Notes under the pieces: generated by a model
What the model was told of the DNA's origin: nothing
What the model saw: only the letters and a program-made list of their open reading frames with translations
The model's database searches: none
Part shown: positions 29,876-63,681 of the stretch, in pieces
Position numbering within the stretch: position 1 is the stretch's first letter
How the letters are laid out: every line of letters begins with the position of its first letter
Made by a program: the position numbers and the translations under genes
Assembly (NCBI GenBank): GCA_023475345.1
Contig: JAMCWD010000022.1
Span: 1-64,000 of the forward strand
Reading direction: 5' to 3'
DNA length: 64,000 bases
Source of the DNA: Chloroflexota bacterium
Lineage (GTDB): Bacteria; Vulcanimicrobiota; JAMCWD01

Positions 29876-31171
29876 ATGCATAGAGGCTGTGATACAGGGC
29901 AACATAGATTGTATTCGAAGCGATCCCGAAGAGGGATAGCTTTTGTGGTTATACTTATGCTGTCGGTTATCCTGTTTCTTCTTGCGATAACCATTGCAAC
30001 AGTTTCAACCAGGGTGCGGATTACCGGGAAGCTTTATGGGGTAAGGGCCGTCATACGTCAGCAGGCGCTTGGAGGCGTGGAAGAAGCGCTCCATCATCTT
30101 GAAAAAAATACGGACTGGGAAAGCGCCGGGGGCCAGCATGGTTTTATTCCGAAAGCCGAAGCCGCTGTCGATATAGGAGGATTGACTGTTTATCACCGTC
30201 TTACCGTCCTGGATTACGGCATTGATAAAGTAACGGTCAGGTCGGAAGCATATACCAAGGACGTAATAGGAAACCCTGCTGTAAAACGCAGCGCCACTTT
30301 TACCGTCATAAGAGACCTCGGGCCTTTCCAGCACGGGGTATTCGGTTCCCAGAGAATTTATATGAGTTCCAGCTCGATAGTTGACAGCTATAATTCCTCC
30401 GAGGGCACGTATCAACAAACAAAAAGGCAGACAGGAGGCGATGTAGGCACCAATTCGACTTTCTTGTATTCGATCGTGTTATATTATTATTCCTGGATTT
30501 ACGGGGATATTTACATACACCCCAAAGCGGCCCCGAGTAAGGTCATATATAAGGGATGGGGCTCCGGGTATTCAGGCAGTATAAAGAAAATGACGGCTTC
30601 TTTCCCGATCCCTCCGGTTACCCCGCCGACGGGGACCAGCCTGGGGAATATAACGGTCAATGCAAAGACCGTCGAACTGACGCCGGGGATATACAGTAAC
30701 CTGGTAATCAGGAATAAGGGGAGCCTGGTTCTCAGGGACGGCACTTATGTTTTTAACCGTATAACCATGTATGACGGTTCCGAGATCCGCCTGAAAGAAG
30801 TAACCAGTCCTGCAATCGTTTACTTGAAAGATAATATTGAGGCCGCCCGCGAAGGTTCCGGAGGAGTTATTATCAACGGCGGCAGTATTGTAAATACGAC
30901 AGAAAAGCCTCCGCTGCTTTTCATAATGGCCGGCACAAATTGCCGGACTATTCAAATGATGGGCAGCCGGGGAACAGGGCCCAGTTGTTATTTTTCCATT
31001 TATGCCCCTAACGCTAATATAATGATGTACGGGAATTCCGAGATTTACGGTGCCCTTGTCGGCAAGTATGTTTATATATACGGCAATTCGGCGGTCCACT
31101 TCGACCGGGCATTGAGACATTGTGTCCTGTCGCCTTTGAACATGAGGTTTATAAGCTATCAGGTCGAATGA
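29876..31171 (+). CDS. PilX-type pilus assembly protein with large C-terminal domain
   Basis: 431 residues. A basic leader ending RRG (residue 20) precedes a hydrophobic helix (IAFVVILMLSVILFLLAITI) and an amphipathic continuation, as in PilX N-terminal minor pilins; Glu at position 5 of the mature form is absent, as is common in PilX. Residues 145-431 form a beta-rich domain with repeated short strands and Gly/Asn turns (TPGIYSNLVIRNKGSLVLRDGTYVFN), similar to the DUF7305-type part found in PilX-like proteins. It is probably processed by prepilin peptidase and placed in a type IV pilus or secretion pseudopilus. The PilT genes follow on the other strand. Confidence 0.8.
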   Translation: MHRGCDTGQHRLYSKRSRRGIAFVVILMLSVILFLLAITIATVSTRVRITGKLYGVRAVIRQQALGGVEEALHHLEKNTDWESAGGQHGFIPKAEAAVDIGGLTVYHRLTVLDYGIDKVTVRSEAYTKDVIGNPAVKRSATFTVIRDLGPFQHGVFGSQRIYMSSSSIVDSYNSSEGTYQQTKRQTGGDVGTNSTFLYSIVLYYYSWIYGDIYIHPKAAPSKVIYKGWGSGYSGSIKKMTASFPIPPVTPPTGTSLGNITVNAKTVELTPGIYSNLVIRNKGSLVLRDGTYVFNRITMYDGSEIRLKEVTSPAIVYLKDNIEAAREGSGGVIINGGSIVNTTEKPPLLFIMAGTNCRTIQMMGSRGTGPSCYFSIYAPNANIMMYGNSEIYGALVGKYVYIYGNSAVHFDRALRHCVLSPLNMRFISYQVE

Positions 31172-31367: not shown

Positions 31368-32615
31368 TTAAAACTTCTGTTCCTGTTTCTTGGTTATCTG
31401 GACGCCCATTTCGCCGAAGAATGAGTGGTCATGGGCTTTTTCCATTACGGTAGCGAGGCTGATTTTTCCGGCCCGGTACAAATCGAGGATCGCCATGTCC
31501 ATAGTCTGCATGCCTTCCTGGACGCTCATCTGGATATAAGTGGGGATATGGCTGGTTTTCTTTTCTCTCAATAATGACGCCAGGCTGGGCGTGTTGAGCA
31601 TTATTTCGACGGCCACACAACGGCCGGGGATATCCGACCTGGGGAGCAGTGTCTGGGCCACGACGGCCCTCAATGAATCCGAAACCATGCTGCGTATCTG
31701 TTCCTGGAGACCGGCCTGGAAAATATTTATGATGCGATCAACAGTTTTAGACGCGCTGTTGGTATGCATGGACGAGAGCACTAGAACGCCGGTTTCAGCC
31801 GCCCTGACGGCCTCGTACACCGTGTCGAGGTCTCTCATTTCACCGACCATTATTACGTCGGGATCTTCGCGGAGCGCGGCGCGGATGGATTCGGCGAAAG
31901 AGTTGGCATGAGTCCCTATTTCCCTGTGATCCACAAGGCAGTTTTTATTGCCGTGGATGAATTCGATGGGGTCCTCAATCGTAATTATATGTCCCTGCCG
32001 GGTCCTGTTGATTTGATCGACAATCGCCGCAAGAGTGGTGGATTTGCCGCTGCAGGTGGGTCCCGTAGTCAGCACAAGGCCGGACCTGTATTCGGCGATA
32101 GTTTTCAAGACGTCCGGGAGGCCGAGGTCATCGAGGATGGGAACATGGGCCGGTATTACGCGGAATGCCGCGGCAAGCCCGTTATAATCCGAATAAAAAT
32201 TGGCGCGGAACCTCCCTATGCCTATCGCTTCATAAGTGAAATCAAGGTTGCCGGTATTCAGAAAGCGCTCTATCTTGTCCCACGAAAGCAGGGGGAACAT
32301 CAGCTCTTTTGCTCTTTCCGGAGTTATTAAGGGAGCCGTAGTTTTTACCAACTGCCCGTGAATTCTCATGAGGGGTGGGTTTTTCACCGTTATATGAAGA
32401 TCGGATGCGTGATACCTGATAGTAAGATCAAAAAGATCATCGAGCTTATAGTCGTCTTTCAGGGGAATAAATTTTTCTTCTCTCAGTTCAGGCGGCGCTT
32501 CGGGTAATGCTGCGGCATCGAGAGCGCTGATTTCCTCCTTGCTCATTTGCCCGGCTTCCTGGGTCTCCCGGAAAGCTATTCTGCCGCTGTCCAGAGGGTT
32601 ATTCTCATTAAACAT
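31368..32615 (-). CDS. pilT: Type IV pilus retraction ATPase, PilT family
   Basis: 415 residues. After a 60-residue acidic, poorly ordered N-terminus come the PilT N-domain (LTIRYHASDLHITVKNPPLMRIHG) and the RecA-like core: Walker A GPTCSGKST, Asp box TIEDPIEF, Walker B IMVGEMRD with catalytic Glu, and His box SSMHTNSASKTVDRII. The C-terminal part (PTYIQMSVQEGMQTMDMAILDLY) is like PilT. The hexamer powers pilus retraction. Its start overlaps the end of the upstream PilT paralogue by eight bases, so they are translationally coupled. Confidence 0.93.
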   Translation of the reverse strand: MFNENNPLDSGRIAFRETQEAGQMSKEEISALDAAALPEAPPELREEKFIPLKDDYKLDDLFDLTIRYHASDLHITVKNPPLMRIHGQLVKTTAPLITPERAKELMFPLLSWDKIERFLNTGNLDFTYEAIGIGRFRANFYSDYNGLAAAFRVIPAHVPILDDLGLPDVLKTIAEYRSGLVLTTGPTCSGKSTTLAAIVDQINRTRQGHIITIEDPIEFIHGNKNCLVDHREIGTHANSFAESIRAALREDPDVIMVGEMRDLDTVYEAVRAAETGVLVLSSMHTNSASKTVDRIINIFQAGLQEQIRSMVSDSLRAVVAQTLLPRSDIPGRCVAVEIMLNTPSLASLLREKKTSHIPTYIQMSVQEGMQTMDMAILDLYRAGKISLATVMEKAHDHSFFGEMGVQITKKQEQKF

Positions 32616-33699
32616 CCCAGGCTTCTCCTTTCATTTCAGGAGATTCTTCGAACAATGCCTTGTCGGAACAGCGCGCCAGGGCGTCTTCCCTGGTAATCTT
32701 GCCCTCGTCATACAACTCGTAAAGCGTCTTATCCAGGAGGTGCATTCCCATCATGCGGCCCGTCTGTATATGAGAATTAATCTGGAATGTCCTGTTCTCC
32801 CTGATAAGGTTGGATATGGAATATGTCCCTACAAGGATTTCAGTGGCGAGTATCATCCCCGGGCGGTCTGTCCTGGGTATGAGCTGCTGGCAGATGACCC
32901 CGCGGAGTATTTCGGCCAGGGTTATGGAGATCTGGGCCTGTTTTTCATACGGGAAAGCGTCGATGAGCCTATTGATTGTAGTTACGGCGCTCCTGGTGTG
33001 CATGGTGCTGAAGACCAGGTGACCTGTTTCTGCTGCGGTAAGCGCAAGCTCGATAGTCGGCAGGTCTCTCAGGTCGCTGATTACTATAACGTCGGAATCC
33101 TGGCGCAGCGCGCCCTTGAGGGCAAGCGCGAACGATTCTACATGAAGCCCCACCTGTCTCTGGTTGATAAGGGCGGTTTTGTTTTCATAAAGAAATTCGA
33201 TGGGCTGCTCGATGGTGGTTATATGGATTGAATCGCGCCGGTTTATAATGTCAACGAGAGCCGTCATGCTGGATGTCTTCCCCGATCCTGCAGGCCCCGT
33301 TACAAGGACAAGGCCGTTTTGATGGAATGTAAACCTTTTGACGACTTCGGGAAGTCCCAGCTCTTCTACCGAGGGGATATAATTCGGGACATGCCTGAAT
33401 ACCAGGTTGAGGCCGTTTCGCTGGTAAAAGGCATTTCCCCTGAAGCGGTAAAGCTTGCTGTCTTCAAGGACGGTTTCATAAGCAAAATCCACATTCAACA
33501 GTTTCGGGAGCTTTTCTTTATCGTCAACGCTCAAGACTTCCTTGGCAAGCTCCTTGATCCTCGAAGGTGTGAGCGGGGGCTCGTCCAGCGGGAAGAGCTT
33601 CCCGTAAATCCGGATCCTTGCAGGTGAGCCTGACGGGAGGTGTAAATCGGAGCCCCGGTGTTGTATCAGTTGATATAAATATTCATCTACCCTTGCCAT
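32608..33699 (-). CDS. PilT-family ATPase paralogue with altered Asp box and Walker B
   Basis: 363 residues, a PilT/PilU-type protein. Walker A (GPAGSGKT, residues 135-142) and the His box (STMHTRSAVTTINRLID) are intact. The Asp box reads IEQPIEF, with Gln165 where family members have Asp, and Walker B reads VISDLRD, with Ser-Asp in place of Gly-Glu, so the catalytic Glu is Asp209. Nucleotide binding should remain, hydrolysis may be slow or altered. It overlaps the start of the standard pilT and probably forms mixed or regulatory complexes with it, as PilU does with PilT in other species. Confidence 0.88.
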   Translation of the reverse strand: MARVDEYLYQLIQHRGSDLHLPSGSPARIRIYGKLFPLDEPPLTPSRIKELAKEVLSVDDKEKLPKLLNVDFAYETVLEDSKLYRFRGNAFYQRNGLNLVFRHVPNYIPSVEELGLPEVVKRFTFHQNGLVLVTGPAGSGKTSSMTALVDIINRRDSIHITTIEQPIEFLYENKTALINQRQVGLHVESFALALKGALRQDSDVIVISDLRDLPTIELALTAAETGHLVFSTMHTRSAVTTINRLIDAFPYEKQAQISITLAEILRGVICQQLIPRTDRPGMILATEILVGTYSISNLIRENRTFQINSHIQTGRMMGMHLLDKTLYELYDEGKITREDALARCSDKALFEESPEMKGEAWDV

Positions 33700-56650: not shown

Positions 56651-59600
56651 ATGGCGCGAAAGCGTGTTGGAGATCTTTTGCTTGAAGCGGGGGTTATAAC
56701 TGCTGAGCAGTTGGGCACCGCGCTTAAAGAGCAGAAAAAGACTCATGATCGGCTTGGCAACGTCCTTCTGAAGCTTAACTTTATTGATGAAGATAAGCTT
56801 TCCGAAGTGCTTGCTCATCAATCAGGTGCCAATTTTGTTGATCTCACAGAGATTTCTATTTCTCCGGAAACGGCGAAGCTTTTGCCGAAAAGTTTCTGTA
56901 TGGAGAACAAAGTCATTCCGCTTTCGAAAGATGGAAACCGTATAGTAGTGGCGATGAGCGACCCATTCGATATCGTAACTCTCGATATGGTTACACTTTT
57001 CACAGGCAGCGAAGTACAGGTTGCTGTGGCGAGAGAAAGAGAAATAGTTGACGCCATTGAAAAGTTTTGCTTTGAAGAAGAGCTTGAGCTTGTCCCTTCA
57101 GGAGGAGGAGAAAGAAAGGAAGATCTGTCGGATATAGCTTTCAGGTCAGAAATTAAAGACGGGCAGGATCTTTCGAAAATCAGCCCTGAAAAAATATTCA
57201 TACCTCTTGAAACATTGCGTATGGTGCCGCAGGAATTCTGCACCAATAACAAGATCATCCCGCTTCGAAAGGGAGATAATTACCTGCTCATCGGGATGGC
57301 GGACCCTTCCGATATCGTTACCCTCGATATGCTTAAAGTTATGACGGGTCTTGAAATAAGGACGGTTCCTTTTTCCGAAGAGGATATCATGGATCTCCTG
57401 GCCCGTTTTTATCATGATGACCTGGCCCTTGAAGAGCTGGTATCTGTAGTTTCCGATGAGACCTCGGTTGAAGTTGTCAGGAGCGATTTCGGGGGAGATT
57501 TTGATTCATCGGAAAGCAGCATTAAAAACATTGATCTGCAGAGCCTCCGGAACAAGAGTGAGACCGGCCCGGTAATACGCCTTGCCAACTCCCTTGTTAT
57601 CGAAGCCATAAAAATGAGAGCTTCGGATATACACATCGAGCCGAGGGAAGCGGCGACACAGGTCCGCTGCCGCGTTGACGGTCTTTTGAAGAACATGACT
57701 TTCCTCCCGTCCTTCGTCCATGCGCGCCTTATTTCAAGGTTCAAAATTATGAGCGGCATGGATATATCCGAGACCCGGAACCCCCAGGACGGCAGGTGCC
57801 GTGTCCGCATGGGCAAAAACGAGTATGACATGCGTGTCTCAACCGTGCCCACGTTCTACGGCGAAAAGCTCGTTATGCGTATCCTGGACCAGAGTGCCGG
57901 ATCAATCGGTCTTGAAAACATCGGTTTCTGCCAGGAAGATTACGACAAGATTATAACGGCAATAACGCAGCAGCAGGGGATTATTCTCGTAACGGGTCCT
58001 ACGGGAAGCGGTAAGTCTTCGACGCTGTTCAGCATCCTGGAAGTCCTTAAGTCCGAGACCAAGAATATAATCACGGTCGAGGATCCTATAGAATATGATA
58101 TCACGGGCATTAACCAGATGCAGGTTAATGAGAAGGCCGGGCTTACCTTCGCATCGCTTTTAAGGCACATCCTCCGCCAGGACCCCGACGTGGTGATGGT
58201 CGGTGAAATCCGTGACGAGGAAACCGCCGAAATAGCGTTCCATGCCGCTATGACGGGCCATCTTGTGCTTTCAACTCTACATACCAACGATGCTCCCACG
58301 ACGGTCATACGCTTGAGGGAGCTTGCGGTCAGCCCTTATCTTGTAGCCGCTTCGCTTAAAGCGGTAGTAGCCCAGAGGCTTGTCCGCACAATTTGCTCCA
58401 AATGCCGCGAAGCGTATCCCGCTCCACGGGAAGTTGTCGAAATGCTCGGCATGGACTATTCCGATGATCTGAAATTTTACAAGGGAAAGGGTTGTAAGAC
58501 CTGCGGGTTTACCGGTTATCACGGAAGGACAGGCATTTTCGAAGTCCTTACTCTTGACGATAAAATCCAGGATTTGATTTACAAGGAAGTATCGACTATA
58601 GAGCTTGCCGATGCGGCGTCCAAACAGGGCATGAAATTCCTTATGCAGGATGCGATGAACAAAGTCAAAAAAGGCATAACGACGCCGGAAGAAGTCCTTC
58701 GCGTAATATCACGGGCCGAAATAATACAACACGGCAGGGTATGCCCGCGTTGTAATACGCGCATCCAGCTCGATTATACGGTCTGTCCCAAGTGTGGTCT
58801 TGATCTTGAGAAGAGAAAATGCCCCAACTGCGGCAAGGAGCTTGAGGAAGGCCTGGATATCTGTCCGAATTGTGACGTTCCCAAAGCTTCCATCGATATT
58901 TCTCAAAGGCAGCCTGCCATGGCAATGTCTGCGGGAGTTATTCCGCCTCCCGGCGCCCCCGTTAATGTCTCTCCGGTCCAGGTGCAGGAAGCTCCTCCTT
59001 CTGCGGCTGTCTGTCCGAATTGTGGGGCCGATGTTGACCCCAACTGGGTTAGATGTGCATTTTGCGATCATGTTATCGCGGAAAAAGCCGATGAGCCTGA
59101 TCCTGCAGAAGAGCGGGAGTGCCCCGGCTGCGGCAGGATGTTGAGTTCAGACTGGGTATCCTGCCCGTTCTGCGGAGCTTCGTTCGTTACAAAGGAAGAA
59201 CCCGAGCCTGAACCTGTCGCCGCTCAACCACAGCCTTCGTACCAGGCAGGGTTGTATCAGCAGGCGCCTCCATACCAGCAGCAATATCAGCCGCCTTATC
59301 CCCAGGCGTATCCTCCGCCGATGGGCTACCCGGCATACGGACAGCCCGGTTATTACCAGCCGGCTCCTTATGCTCCCCCCGCCCCTTATCCTTACCAGTA
59401 TCCTCCTGCGCCACAGACTTATCCTGCGGCCCAGAAGGTATGTCCTTCATGCAACCAGCCCGTCAATCCCCAGTGGAGGCTTTGCCCGTATTGTGCTGCA
59501 AATCTAGGGCAGAATATGGTGCAACAGGGAGCAGTCTGCAGCAATTGTAAAAGTCCGCTCCAGCCCGGGTGGAAAATTTGTCCTTCATGCGAATCGCCTG

Positions 59601-60454
59601 TAGAGGCGGCCAAGCCCCAGGCTTATTCAAAATGCCCTTCCTGCAATTCGCAGGTTAAGGCGGAATGGAAAATGTGTCCCACCTGCGCGATGCCTTTAAC
59701 CGCTCCTTCTTACGAATCAAGTGCGAAAAAAGAGCAGATGTGTTCCAAGTGTTCGGCAAAATTGAACCCGGAATGGGCCGCCTGTCCTTTCTGCCAGACA
59801 CCGGTGGGTGTTGCCAAAAAAGAAGAAACCGGCAATTCCTGCCCGTTCTGCGGCGCCAGGGTGGAGGCTGGATGGAATTTCTGTTCCAACTGCCAGAGGA
59901 GAATCGATACCAGGGAGATGGACAAGGGATTGCCGCCAAAACCCGTCATACCTGAACCACAAGTTGAGGCGGAAGTCGTTCCCCTGAGAAAAGATAAATC
60001 CCGGACCAGGGACAAAAAAAGAATCCTTGTAGTGGACGATGAGGCCAAAATCCAGAACCTTTTGAAAAAAGTGCTCGAAAGCAACGGCTATGAAGTTGAG
60101 GTGGTTTCCGACGGCAGTCAGGCATTGCAGAAAATAACATCTTCAAGACCGGACCTTGTAATAACGGATACTACGATGCCCGGTTCGGACGGGTTCGAGT
60201 TGTGTTCGAGGATCAAGCAGAACTCCCAGCTTGCTTCTATCCCGGTCATCATGCTTTTCTCTTGGGAACATCCCGACCATGAATTGAAAGGCATGGAAGC
60301 GGGTGCTGACGATTTCATACAAAAGCCTCTATACCAGGATAAAATATTGACCAAAGTCAACCTCGTCCTGAAAAAATTCAAGAATGATCAAGCTTCCAAG
60401 GAAACCACCCTTGACAGGGTTCAAGAACAGGGCGGCTCAAGTCCTTCTCCCTGA
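56651..60454 (+). CDS. PilB/GspE-type ATPase fused to nine zinc ribbons and a receiver domain
   Basis: 1267 residues. Residues 5-145 are an MshEN (cyclic-di-GMP-binding type) module, and a second partial copy spans about 173-255. The ATPase core (300-690) has Walker A GPTGSGKSST (449-458), Asp box VEDPIEYD, Walker B VVMVGEIRDEET (514-525), His box STLHTNDAPTT, and the assembly-ATPase tetracysteine (582/585, 615/618). Then come nine CxxC...CxxC zinc ribbons starting at 698, 724, 788, 824, 931, 963, 995, 1031 and 1064, most with a conserved Trp, interrupted by a Pro/Tyr/Gln-rich linker (850-925). A receiver domain (1123-1245) ends the protein, with acidic pair 1129-1130, Asp1173 and Lys1225. 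It powers pilus or type II-like secretion assembly. The tail is very unusual. Confidence 0.9.
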   Translation: MARKRVGDLLLEAGVITAEQLGTALKEQKKTHDRLGNVLLKLNFIDEDKLSEVLAHQSGANFVDLTEISISPETAKLLPKSFCMENKVIPLSKDGNRIVVAMSDPFDIVTLDMVTLFTGSEVQVAVAREREIVDAIEKFCFEEELELVPSGGGERKEDLSDIAFRSEIKDGQDLSKISPEKIFIPLETLRMVPQEFCTNNKIIPLRKGDNYLLIGMADPSDIVTLDMLKVMTGLEIRTVPFSEEDIMDLLARFYHDDLALEELVSVVSDETSVEVVRSDFGGDFDSSESSIKNIDLQSLRNKSETGPVIRLANSLVIEAIKMRASDIHIEPREAATQVRCRVDGLLKNMTFLPSFVHARLISRFKIMSGMDISETRNPQDGRCRVRMGKNEYDMRVSTVPTFYGEKLVMRILDQSAGSIGLENIGFCQEDYDKIITAITQQQGIILVTGPTGSGKSSTLFSILEVLKSETKNIITVEDPIEYDITGINQMQVNEKAGLTFASLLRHILRQDPDVVMVGEIRDEETAEIAFHAAMTGHLVLSTLHTNDAPTTVIRLRELAVSPYLVAASLKAVVAQRLVRTICSKCREAYPAPREVVEMLGMDYSDDLKFYKGKGCKTCGFTGYHGRTGIFEVLTLDDKIQDLIYKEVSTIELADAASKQGMKFLMQDAMNKVKKGITTPEEVLRVISRAEIIQHGRVCPRCNTRIQLDYTVCPKCGLDLEKRKCPNCGKELEEGLDICPNCDVPKASIDISQRQPAMAMSAGVIPPPGAPVNVSPVQVQEAPPSAAVCPNCGADVDPNWVRCAFCDHVIAEKADEPDPAEERECPGCGRMLSSDWVSCPFCGASFVTKEEPEPEPVAAQPQPSYQAGLYQQAPPYQQQYQPPYPQAYPPPMGYPAYGQPGYYQPAPYAPPAPYPYQYPPAPQTYPAAQKVCPSCNQPVNPQWRLCPYCAANLGQNMVQQGAVCSNCKSPLQPGWKICPSCESPVEAAKPQAYSKCPSCNSQVKAEWKMCPTCAMPLTAPSYESSAKKEQMCSKCSAKLNPEWAACPFCQTPVGVAKKEETGNSCPFCGARVEAGWNFCSNCQRRIDTREMDKGLPPKPVIPEPQVEAEVVPLRKDKSRTRDKKRILVVDDEAKIQNLLKKVLESNGYEVEVVSDGSQALQKITSSRPDLVITDTTMPGSDGFELCSRIKQNSQLASIPVIMLFSWEHPDHELKGMEAGADDFIQKPLYQDKILTKVNLVLKKFKNDQASKETTLDRVQEQGGSSPSP

Positions 60455-60603: not shown

Positions 60604-63600
60604 GTGGCTCGCAAGCGTGTCGGCGAGTTGTTGCTGGATGCGGGTATTATAACCGAGGAGCAGCTTGCAACAGCTCTTAAAGAACAAAAAAATACGCGTG
60701 AGAAATTAGGCAAGATCCTGATTAATAGAGGTTTTCTAAACCAGGAGAAGCTTGCCGAGATACTGGCGCAGCAATCGGGTTTCCCTCTTATAAGCCTTGA
60801 TGATATCTCGCTCGATTCAAATGTAATTAAAACCATACCCAAGAATTTCTGCCTGAATAACAAAGTTGTCCCGCTCTCGATTAAAAGCAGCAAAGTTACC
60901 CTTGCGGTGGCCGATCCCTTCGATGTTGTAACCGTTGACCTCGTGGCCCTGATGACGGGTTGTGAAGTTGAATTAAAAGTGGCTACCGAAGCAGATATTT
61001 TAAATGCCGTAAATAAATTCTACGAGGGCGATGAAGAGGAGATCAAGGTTGTTACTCACGATATTGCTGCCGAAGATCTTCCCGGGGAAATGGAGGGTGT
61101 TGAGGAAATCCAGTTCGCCCCCCTGTTTAATGAAACCCAGGAACAGGATCTTTCAAAAATCGATACCGAGAAAATCTATGTCCCCATGGATACCCTTCGC
61201 CTGGTGCCGAGGGAATTCTGTGTCAGGAACAAGCTTATCCCTCTTCGCAAAGGCGACAATTATTTGCTGGTTGCGATCGCCGACACTTCTGATGTCGTAA
61301 CTCTCGATATGCTCAAGGTTATGACCGATTTCGAAATTAAAACGGTCCAGTTCCCCGCAAGCGCCATAGAAAATCTCCTGGAACGGCTCTATAGCAGTGA
61401 GATGGCAATCGACGAGTTGGTATCGATTATATCGAGTACGAGCAAGCTTGAGGTAGTCAAGGAAGACGAAAACGGACACTCGCTCGACGATTCGTCTAAA
61501 AGCGTCGATCTCCAGAATTTAAGGTCGGAAAGCGAAACCGGGCCTGTAATACGCCTGGTCAATTCCATTATCCTTAATGCAATCAAGGCTCGCTCATCCG
61601 ATATTCATATCGAGCCGAGGGAGGCGGCGACGCAGGTCAGGTATCGTATCGACGGCCTTTTGAAGAACATAGCTTTTCTTCCTTCTTTCGTTCACCTCAA
61701 GCTCATCTCGCGCTTTAAAATCATGGCGGGCATGGACATTGCGGAATCCCGCGCTCCCCAGGACGGCAGGTGCCGCATAAGGATGAAGAAAAAAGAGTAT
61801 GATCTCCGGATGTCAACCGTGCCTACTTTCTACGGCGAAAAGCTGGTTATCCGTATCCTCAACCAGGATGCGGCTTCGATAGGCCTTGAGAAGCTGGGGC
61901 TTGCACAAAAAGATTACGATGCCATACAGACCGCCATAACCGCACAGCAGGGGATACTCCTCGTAACGGGACCTACCGGCAGCGGCAAATCATCGACGCT
62001 TTTCAGCATCCTGGAAGTCCTCAAGTCCGAAACAAAGAATATAATCACCGTCGAAGACCCCATCGAATACGACATCGCCGGCATCAACCAGATCCAGGTG
62101 AATGAGAGAGCAGGGCTGACTTTCGCAACCGGCCTGAGAAGCATACTCCGCCAGGACCCCGACGTTGTCATGGTTGGAGAGATCCGGGACGAAGAAACCG
62201 CGGAGATAGCCTTCCATGCCGCGATGACCGGGCATGTGGTCTTATCTACTCTTCATACCAACGATGCGCCGACTACCGTCATAAGGCTGAAGGAGATGGG
62301 GCTGAGCTCTTACCTTATCGCGGCTTCTCTCAAGGTAATTCTCGCACAACGGCTTGTCAGGACGATATGTCCCGATTGTAAGGAAGATTATCCTGCGACT
62401 GAAGAAATGTGCGATATGCTCGGCATAGAGTGCGGGGAAGATATGAAATTTTACAAGGGAAAGGGTTGTAAAAATTGCGGGCATACCGGTTATCGCGGCA
62501 GGATCGGCATTTTCGAAGTGCTTGTCCTTGACGATAGTATAAGCGATCAGATTTACAGGGAAGCCTCTATCTCCGATATCAGCGAGGCCGCGCGAAGAAA
62601 CGGCATGAAGCTGCTGATGGAAGACGCCATAGAAAAGGCGCTCAGCGGCGTCACCACCCCGGAAGAAGTTTTAAGAGTTATTTCCCAGGCTGAGATTGCC
62701 AAGCATTTTAAGACCTGTCCCCGCTGCAGCACACGCGTCAAGCCGGGCGTCTCCAAATGTCCCAAATGCGAGCTGACTCTTGAGAGGACAACCTGTCCTG
62801 GCTGCGGGAGAGTTCTGGATAAGGGAGTGGGAGTCTGCCCTTACTGCAGCACTGAAAAAACAGATAAGATTAAGCCCTTGAAAGATATGGAAGAGCCCGG
62901 CGTCCCCGCTCGGTTTGAGCCTGATGAAGTTGAAGAGCTTGTCTCAATGCCGGTTGACCCTGAAGCTAAAGAACTGCCGCCTTACCGGGAAGTACACATT
63001 AAGGAGACGCATCCGAAACAGCCGGCTGCGCATTATGTGCCGCCCGCTGCTCATCATGCGCCTCCGGAACAACAATATGATCCGGCTCCGAACCTCTGTC
63101 CCAATTGCTACCAGCCCGTGAACCCGCGCTGGCAGGTGTGCCCGACCTGCATGATGTCCCTTAAATATGCAGGCGGCCGCAAAGAACCGTTAACAGGCAG
63201 GATATGTTCGATTTGTTCGGCAAGCTTGAACCCGGAATGGGCCGCGTGCCCCTTCTGCCAGACCCCGGTCGTTTCCGGGAGGCGGACAACAAGGGGAAGA
63301 TGCTGTCCTTTCTGCGGAGAAGAAGTTGAAAACGGATGGAATTTCTGCCCGAACTGCCATAACAGGATAGATACCAGGGGGATGGAAAAAGGCGTTCCTC
63401 CCAGATCTCTTGCTTACCCCCAGGGTGGCGAAGGTGAAATCATACCTTTCAGGAAACCCCAAACTTTTAACCTTTCGCCTTCCGTCAACGGTAAAGGTAA
63501 GAGAAGAACCCAGGACGACGACCAGGATATGGAGGTTCTCATAAAAAAAGTACAGGGATATAAAAGTTTCGAAGCGGCCATAGTAACCGAAGGGTATGAA

Positions 63601-63681
63601 CAAATACAGAAGATTAACCATATAAATTCCGAGCCGGAAGATATCCTCCATCCGAAGAAAAAAGGCCGTTCGGCAAGCTGA
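60604..63681 (+). CDS. PilB/GspE-type ATPase with five zinc ribbons, paralogue of the preceding gene
   Basis: 1025 residues, GTG start with GGAGG. The same MshEN modules (5-140 and about 184-262), ATPase core with GPTGSGKSST (456-465), VVMVGEIRDEE, STLHTNDAPTT and tetracysteine (589/592, 622/625). Five zinc ribbons follow, beginning at Cys 705, 731, 832, 868 and 901. The last two are nearly identical to two ribbons of the neighbour, showing common descent by tandem duplication. A proline-rich linker (760-828) divides the ribbons. There is no receiver; the end is a 55-residue charged tail. Probably the two proteins act at the same or paralogous pilus machines. Confidence 0.9.
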   Translation: MARKRVGELLLDAGIITEEQLATALKEQKNTREKLGKILINRGFLNQEKLAEILAQQSGFPLISLDDISLDSNVIKTIPKNFCLNNKVVPLSIKSSKVTLAVADPFDVVTVDLVALMTGCEVELKVATEADILNAVNKFYEGDEEEIKVVTHDIAAEDLPGEMEGVEEIQFAPLFNETQEQDLSKIDTEKIYVPMDTLRLVPREFCVRNKLIPLRKGDNYLLVAIADTSDVVTLDMLKVMTDFEIKTVQFPASAIENLLERLYSSEMAIDELVSIISSTSKLEVVKEDENGHSLDDSSKSVDLQNLRSESETGPVIRLVNSIILNAIKARSSDIHIEPREAATQVRYRIDGLLKNIAFLPSFVHLKLISRFKIMAGMDIAESRAPQDGRCRIRMKKKEYDLRMSTVPTFYGEKLVIRILNQDAASIGLEKLGLAQKDYDAIQTAITAQQGILLVTGPTGSGKSSTLFSILEVLKSETKNIITVEDPIEYDIAGINQIQVNERAGLTFATGLRSILRQDPDVVMVGEIRDEETAEIAFHAAMTGHVVLSTLHTNDAPTTVIRLKEMGLSSYLIAASLKVILAQRLVRTICPDCKEDYPATEEMCDMLGIECGEDMKFYKGKGCKNCGHTGYRGRIGIFEVLVLDDSISDQIYREASISDISEAARRNGMKLLMEDAIEKALSGVTTPEEVLRVISQAEIAKHFKTCPRCSTRVKPGVSKCPKCELTLERTTCPGCGRVLDKGVGVCPYCSTEKTDKIKPLKDMEEPGVPARFEPDEVEELVSMPVDPEAKELPPYREVHIKETHPKQPAAHYVPPAAHHAPPEQQYDPAPNLCPNCYQPVNPRWQVCPTCMMSLKYAGGRKEPLTGRICSICSASLNPEWAACPFCQTPVVSGRRTTRGRCCPFCGEEVENGWNFCPNCHNRIDTRGMEKGVPPRSLAYPQGGEGEIIPFRKPQTFNLSPSVNGKGKRRTQDDDQDMEVLIKKVQGYKSFEAAIVTEGYEQIQKINHINSEPEDILHPKKKGRSAS

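Follow-up and report, generated by a model that had tools for sequence, protein, structure and literature searches.

The window, by which we mean the whole stretch of 64,000 nucleotides that was analysed, contains two adjacent genes for large ATPases of the secretion and pilus-assembly type, here called protein A and protein B (Table 1). The reading frame of A is uninterrupted from its ATG at 56651 to the stop at 60454, and a GGAGGAG ribosome-binding site is located just 5' of the start codon. Pfam searches assigned four kinds of domain to A: MshEN in two stretches (2.2e-35), T2SSE (PF00437; 1.6e-131, residues 303-684, full profile), DZR (PF12773; 2e-30, 105.1 bits, four stretches) and Response_reg (PF00072; 1.1e-30). 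All signature motifs of the motor are intact, with Walker A at residue 449, Walker B/GEIRD at 514 (GEIRD from 518), HTND at about 543-544 and a tetracysteine at 582/585 and 615/618, and A is accordingly a member of the type II/IV secretion ATPase superfamily. The MshEN-ATPase part also matched PilF/PilB structures at 1e-129 or better. The initial annotation had described a complete MshEN and PilB/GspE core, and both the Pfam matches and the motifs agree with this. It overlooked B, a tandem paralogue situated directly 3' of A that is 76% identical to A over the ATPase core. Elsewhere in the window, two adjacent PilT-like ATPases (T2SSE matches) are encoded on the minus strand at 31368-33699; judged by eye, the gene beside them at 29876-31171 may encode a pilin-like protein.

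Table 1. Features of proteins A and B, and kinase-like genes next to related ATPases in the phylum. Positions refer to the window unless a locus is named.
Feature	Position	Strand	Basis
Protein A, 1267 aa: MshEN-T2SSE ATPase, nine zinc ribbons, receiver	56651..60454	+	Reading frame, Pfam, ribosome-binding site
MshE-type c-di-GMP motif pair of A, residues 5-28 and 34-57, 5-residue spacer	56663..56821	+	NF053729
PilB/GspE-like ATPase core of A	57557..58702	+	PF00437 and motif positions
Ribbons 1-4 of A, residues 698-841	58742..59173	+	CxxC positions, DZR
Pro/Tyr/Gln-rich low-complexity linker of A, residues 849-930	59195..59440	+	Composition; pLDDT <50
Ribbons 5-9 of A, residues 931-1081	59441..59893	+	CxxC positions
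Receiver of A, residues 1125-1236	60023..60358	+	Pfam, PleD alignment, fold match
Protein B, 1025 aa, tandem paralogue with five zinc ribbons	60604..63681	+	Reading frame, Pfam, identity
Five zinc ribbons of B, residues 705-918	62716..63357	+	CxxC positions
Vestigial first half of receiver in B, residues 971-1015	63514..63648	+	Local alignment to A receiver
Kinase-like genes after receiver-ATPase genes	L032:8373-10061, L034:4104-5765, L035:4131-5912		No Pfam match

Behind the ATPase, A carries exactly 18 CxxC motifs, which form nine units of the paired CxxC-x10-CxxC type expected of double zinc ribbons (PF12773), in agreement with the number first proposed (residues 698-715, 724-741, 788-805, 824-841, 931-948, 963-980, 995-1012, 1031-1048 and 1064-1081). 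They are arranged as four plus five, divided by an 82-residue linker that holds 25 Pro, 15 Tyr and 15 Gln. A linker of this composition had been placed ahead of the receiver; it is indeed present, but sits between ribbons 4 and 5. The identity among the A ribbons at the DNA level is only 39-67% and GC3 is similar throughout the gene (0.53-0.55). Since GC3 is even, the ribbons have diverged and the frame is single, it is unlikely that the C-terminal half belongs to a separate reading frame or represents a repeat-assembly artefact.

An AlphaFold model of the A tail, built on nine sequences and with zinc absent, shows compact ordered beads whose pLDDT is about 70-85, joined by linkers that stay below 50, and a receiver that exceeds 90; the overall pTM of 0.35 indicates no fixed arrangement. 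Compact beads joined by linkers of such low pLDDT, together with this pTM, are compatible with a flexible array. The initial idea of a flexible docking array therefore fits the model in terms of flexibility, whereas docking itself is a putative role. Despite ribbons down to about 40% DNA identity, no half-broken ribbon was seen in the tails of A and B. We found no solved structures related by sequence to the array, and a search for its source elsewhere in the genome gave weak matches only. When the nine-ribbon array was searched against 149 genomes of the phylum, it matched strongly only itself and B. One further array match was an M48-type protease (by eye) carrying several A-like zinc ribbons (L207:961-2766), indicating that such arrays attach to unrelated enzymes.

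The receiver of A retains D1129, D1130, D1173 and K1225, whereas the Thr/Ser switch is replaced by Phe1203, with a Ser adjacent to it. Comparison with CheY places Phe1203 at the switch position, and the alignment with PleD (E 2e-26) agrees, the switch region reading IPVVLITA in PleD and IPVIMLFS in A. The modelled receiver superimposed on that of MtrA with a TM score of 0.93. Thus, A has the receiver fold and belongs to PF00072, but lacks the full phosphorylatable signature on account of Phe1203; the initial annotation, which credited it with all phosphorylation residues, was right about the acidic pair, D1173 and K1225 and wrong about the switch. With four of the five signature residues, it is nevertheless the best preserved among receivers of this kind seen in the phylum. 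Judging from such residues, receivers without the full signature may either be docking modules, as FrzS is (PMC11580455), or still be phosphorylated.

The five ribbons of B have their best matches in ribbons 1, 2, 5, 8 and 9 of A, in the same order, which indicates that the two arrays share ancestry and differ by gain or loss of units between. The tail of B aligned locally to the A receiver with a score of 67, as compared to 26 ± 4.6 for shuffled sequences, none of which (0/2000) scored as high. This half receiver keeps both acidic residues and ends ahead of the phospho-Asp. The simplest inference from the sequences would be that the ancestor had a receiver and that B lost most of its own, while the ATPase domain of B is complete. 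On a tree of the ATPase core, the A/B pair forms a deep, isolated branch.

At the N-terminal end, both proteins scored well above the 38-bit cut-off of NF053729, the NCBI model for the c-di-GMP motif (72.3 bits for A and 71.8 bits for B). MshEN domains consist of two 24-residue motifs with a 5-residue spacer (PMC5013675), and A resembles the MshE/MshEN assembly ATPases described there in both respects. Its two RLGxx..LxxxLxxQ motifs depart from the published motif in having Val for Leu in motif I and Asn for Gly in motif II, all other positions being in agreement, and A is a putative c-di-GMP binder. The same work notes that MshEN domains co-occur with receivers and says nothing further on such fusions (PMC5013675). 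The genome encodes 10 GGDEF domains. A c-di-GMP-type sensor domain, a motor, a ribbon array and a receiver are thus joined in one chain in A, just as had been claimed at the outset. MshE itself is not known to have a ribbon array or a receiver.

The best curated match of A was the PilB equivalog TIGR02538, for which A reached 629.6 bits and B 624.1 bits, below the cut-off of 675.65 bits. Both proteins also fell below the cut-off of 630.25 bits for the GspE equivalog TIGR02533 (A, 581.8; B, 596.7). The curated PilB and GspE models thus assign neither protein to a particular machine. A is similar to PilB in its MshEN and T2SSE core, its Walker and His boxes and its tetracysteine, but differs from it in the score, in lying outside a PilC/PilT operon and in having a long C-terminal tail. 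A canonical PilB is encoded on another contig (C36), inside a PilB-PilT-PilC operon, and passes TIGR02538 with 692.8 bits. No pilus, kinase or MglA gene was found adjoining A and B, and no PilC on their contig (C29). PilC loci occur on other contigs, three of which (C19, C35 and C47) have no ATPase in the stretches read. The C47 locus (L209) comprises a PilC-like platform gene and several prepilin-like genes (by eye), with no ATPase nearby. An Arf/MglA-family gene was not found in the genome, which is 86% complete and encodes 33 HATPase_c domains.

An earlier protein-based scan of contigs found no relative, and a degenerate DNA pattern comprising the ATPase end and three CxxC pairs was used instead to scan GTDB contigs, after validation on known loci. 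The pattern is limited to GAG-GTN codons at its anchor, so the counts given here are lower bounds. ATPases with a C-terminal double zinc ribbon were found in at least seven named phyla. Among the matches listed, they occur in Nitrospirota, Actinomycetota, Myxococcota, Thermodesulfobacteriota, Planctomycetota, Acidobacteriota, Cyanobacteriota/Melainabacteria and a UBP9 bacterium, as well as in two records labelled Pseudomonadota. Of these two, at least L138 may carry a wrong label, given a tail almost identical to that of the UBP9 protein. A receiver is present at the C-terminus in at least about 20 of these ATPases and at the N-terminus in at least 11. Among the matches listed, relatives usually have two ribbons and at most three, and long arrays are restricted to A (nine) and B (five). 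The order MshEN-T2SSE-DZR-receiver is shared by six proteins from four other genomes of the phylum (L032, L033, L034, L035, L045 and L054), each with one double ribbon, and by proteins from Myxococcota (L087), Planctomycetota (L100), Acidobacteriota (L188) and Actinomycetota (L144, with no MshEN in the stretch read). The latter four differ from A in having one double ribbon instead of nine ribbons and a complete receiver signature. With one double ribbon the layout is therefore widespread, and the architecture as such is not unique. Our search of the open-licence literature turned up no paper on these ribbon-bearing ATPases, which does not prove that none exists.

The preservation of the receiver differs within this group. 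The N-terminal receivers carry the DD, D, T and K residues in all 11 cases among the matches listed, and the listed C-terminal receivers from outside the phylum, with L189 counted here despite its truncated ATPase, include nine whose signature is complete or closely equivalent, two degenerate ones and one that is cut off. The six comparable receivers from four other genomes of the phylum have all degenerated, with the acidic pair or the Asp lost. One protein with the domain order of A (L045:5438-7774, genome G034) has its Walker A lysine replaced (GPAGSGR), no GEIRD or HTND, and a receiver with Asp changed to Glu and Lys to Arg; by these residues, both its ATPase and its receiver seem to be dead. 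The G034 protein is close to that of UBP9_UBA1432, which may point to an Eremiobacterota-type lineage. In the tree, the double-ribbon ATPases are mostly placed apart from canonical PilB. With long branches removed they fall on one side of a branch with an SH-aLRT of 97.6, a value that applies to a set chosen after viewing the tree, with L085 and L162 left out and two DZR-less rows included. A topology that unites every ribbon-bearing row in one clade was rejected (p-AU 0.0005).

In six loci from Thermodesulfobacteriota (L089, L132, L172, L173, L186 and L094), a receiver gene is followed by genes for an MglA-like GTPase, a histidine kinase and the receiver-MshEN-T2SSE-DZR ATPase, in full or for the most part. 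The ATPases of Desulfoluna (L132) and Oryzomonas (L186) thus have the domains of A, but with the receiver N-terminal and intact, and with kinase and MglA-like GTPase genes alongside that A and B are without. Within the phylum, three receiver-ATPase genes are directly followed by a gene whose product begins with a kinase-like part and also has a likely membrane span and one more domain (Table 1). The kinase-like part resembles (5e-11) the kinase found in separate kinase-ATPase fusions, and the product is probably a pseudokinase, the catalytic loop appearing degenerate by eye. Fusions of a Ser/Thr protein kinase domain to the N-terminus of T2SSE ATPases were seen in several genomes of the phylum (L037-L043) and were confirmed by Pfam for L038 and L042.

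On balance, we lean towards the view that A is a regulated orphan assembly motor whose tail serves as a flexible docking and signalling scaffold. A and B are tandem duplicates, which we read as orphan motors of the PilB/GspE kind, and they belong to a widespread group of ATPases in which a double zinc ribbon follows the motor, in many cases together with a receiver. Most likely, the motor domain would form a hexamer and act on a PilC-type platform whose gene lies elsewhere in the genome. A pilus or pseudopilus would be assembled once the N-terminal domain allows it, probably after it has bound c-di-GMP. Zinc-bound beads, with the receiver at their end, would hang flexibly from the motor ring and recruit or sense partner proteins. 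A single double ribbon would have grown to nine ribbons in A, which kept its receiver, while B has five ribbons and a decayed receiver. The ATPase-less PilC loci, one of them with prepilin-like genes, speak for the orphan-motor reading, as do the GGDEF domains and the NF053729 scores of both proteins. Further points in its favour are the intact motor motifs of A and its match to PilF/PilB structures, the beaded model of the tail, the receiver remnant in B, the breadth of the group and its mostly separate place in the tree, and the kinase and MglA-like neighbours of the receiver form in Thermodesulfobacteriota. Against it stand the lack of pilus, kinase or MglA neighbours, the failure to find an Arf/MglA-family gene in this 86%-complete genome and the scores below the curated PilB and GspE cut-offs. 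Close relatives also lack a long array, so the importance of the additional ribbons cannot be judged from conservation. Control of PilB by receivers that act in trans has precedents: PixE, a PATAN-REC protein, binds PilB1 (PMC9090330), and the pseudo-receiver of FrzS acts through SgmX on PilB (PMC11580455); these are, however, separate proteins lacking zinc ribbons, whereas A has both receiver and ribbons fused to the motor.

Within the orphan-motor reading, the receiver could work in two ways, whose likelihoods are not to be added together. It may be a non-switching binding platform like FrzS (PMC11580455), with the ribbons extending the docking surface. This is a tentative proposal, to which the missing Thr/Ser of A and the degeneration seen throughout the phylum, including the protein with ATPase and receiver both seemingly dead, lend weight, although A retains more signature residues than the other such receivers seen there. 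Alternatively, a histidine kinase would phosphorylate D1173 and the receiver would gate the motor in cis. Phosphorylation control of A, as initially suggested, is weakened by Phe1203, by the degenerate receivers in the phylum, by the lack of an adjacent kinase and by B, which lost its receiver yet keeps a complete ATPase domain. It is still plausible given the acidic pair, D1173 and K1225, the intact N-terminal receivers of relatives, several of which adjoin a histidine kinase, and the 33 HATPase_c domains in the genome. We consider such a switch rather unlikely, the non-switching receiver being somewhat likelier. The array might also have grown by drift in an orphan duplicate, with no specific role and with a motor independent of it. 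The differing array lengths of A and B, the short tails of the listed relatives and the ribbon-bearing protease in another genome of the phylum are consistent with this, but the lack of half-broken ribbons suggests selection on each unit, a weak argument, given that a ribbon is identified by its cysteines in the first place; we regard neutral growth as improbable. More speculative still, and in our opinion quite improbable, is a mixed A/B ring in which the share of A would set the number of receivers and arrays, c-di-GMP at one end and the receiver signal at the other would together choose among several ATPase-less PilC platforms and the array would act as a multi-client clutch. If true, pilus motors would have a means of control for which no description exists.

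Separate receivers, c-di-GMP and polarity GTPases are known to control PilB-type motors. The ribbon-bearing group fuses such control to the motor and, in Thermodesulfobacteriota that can be cultivated, has kinase and MglA genes alongside, so that control of a pilus-type motor by a receiver could be tested directly. PilB/GspE-type ATPases are already known, MshEN domains with receivers have been noted before (PMC5013675) and sequence data contain many examples of the basic architecture; the nine-ribbon array of A and the half-lost receiver of B are new. With the A/B pair, this group gains an extreme case of ribbon expansion and a receiver in the middle of its loss.
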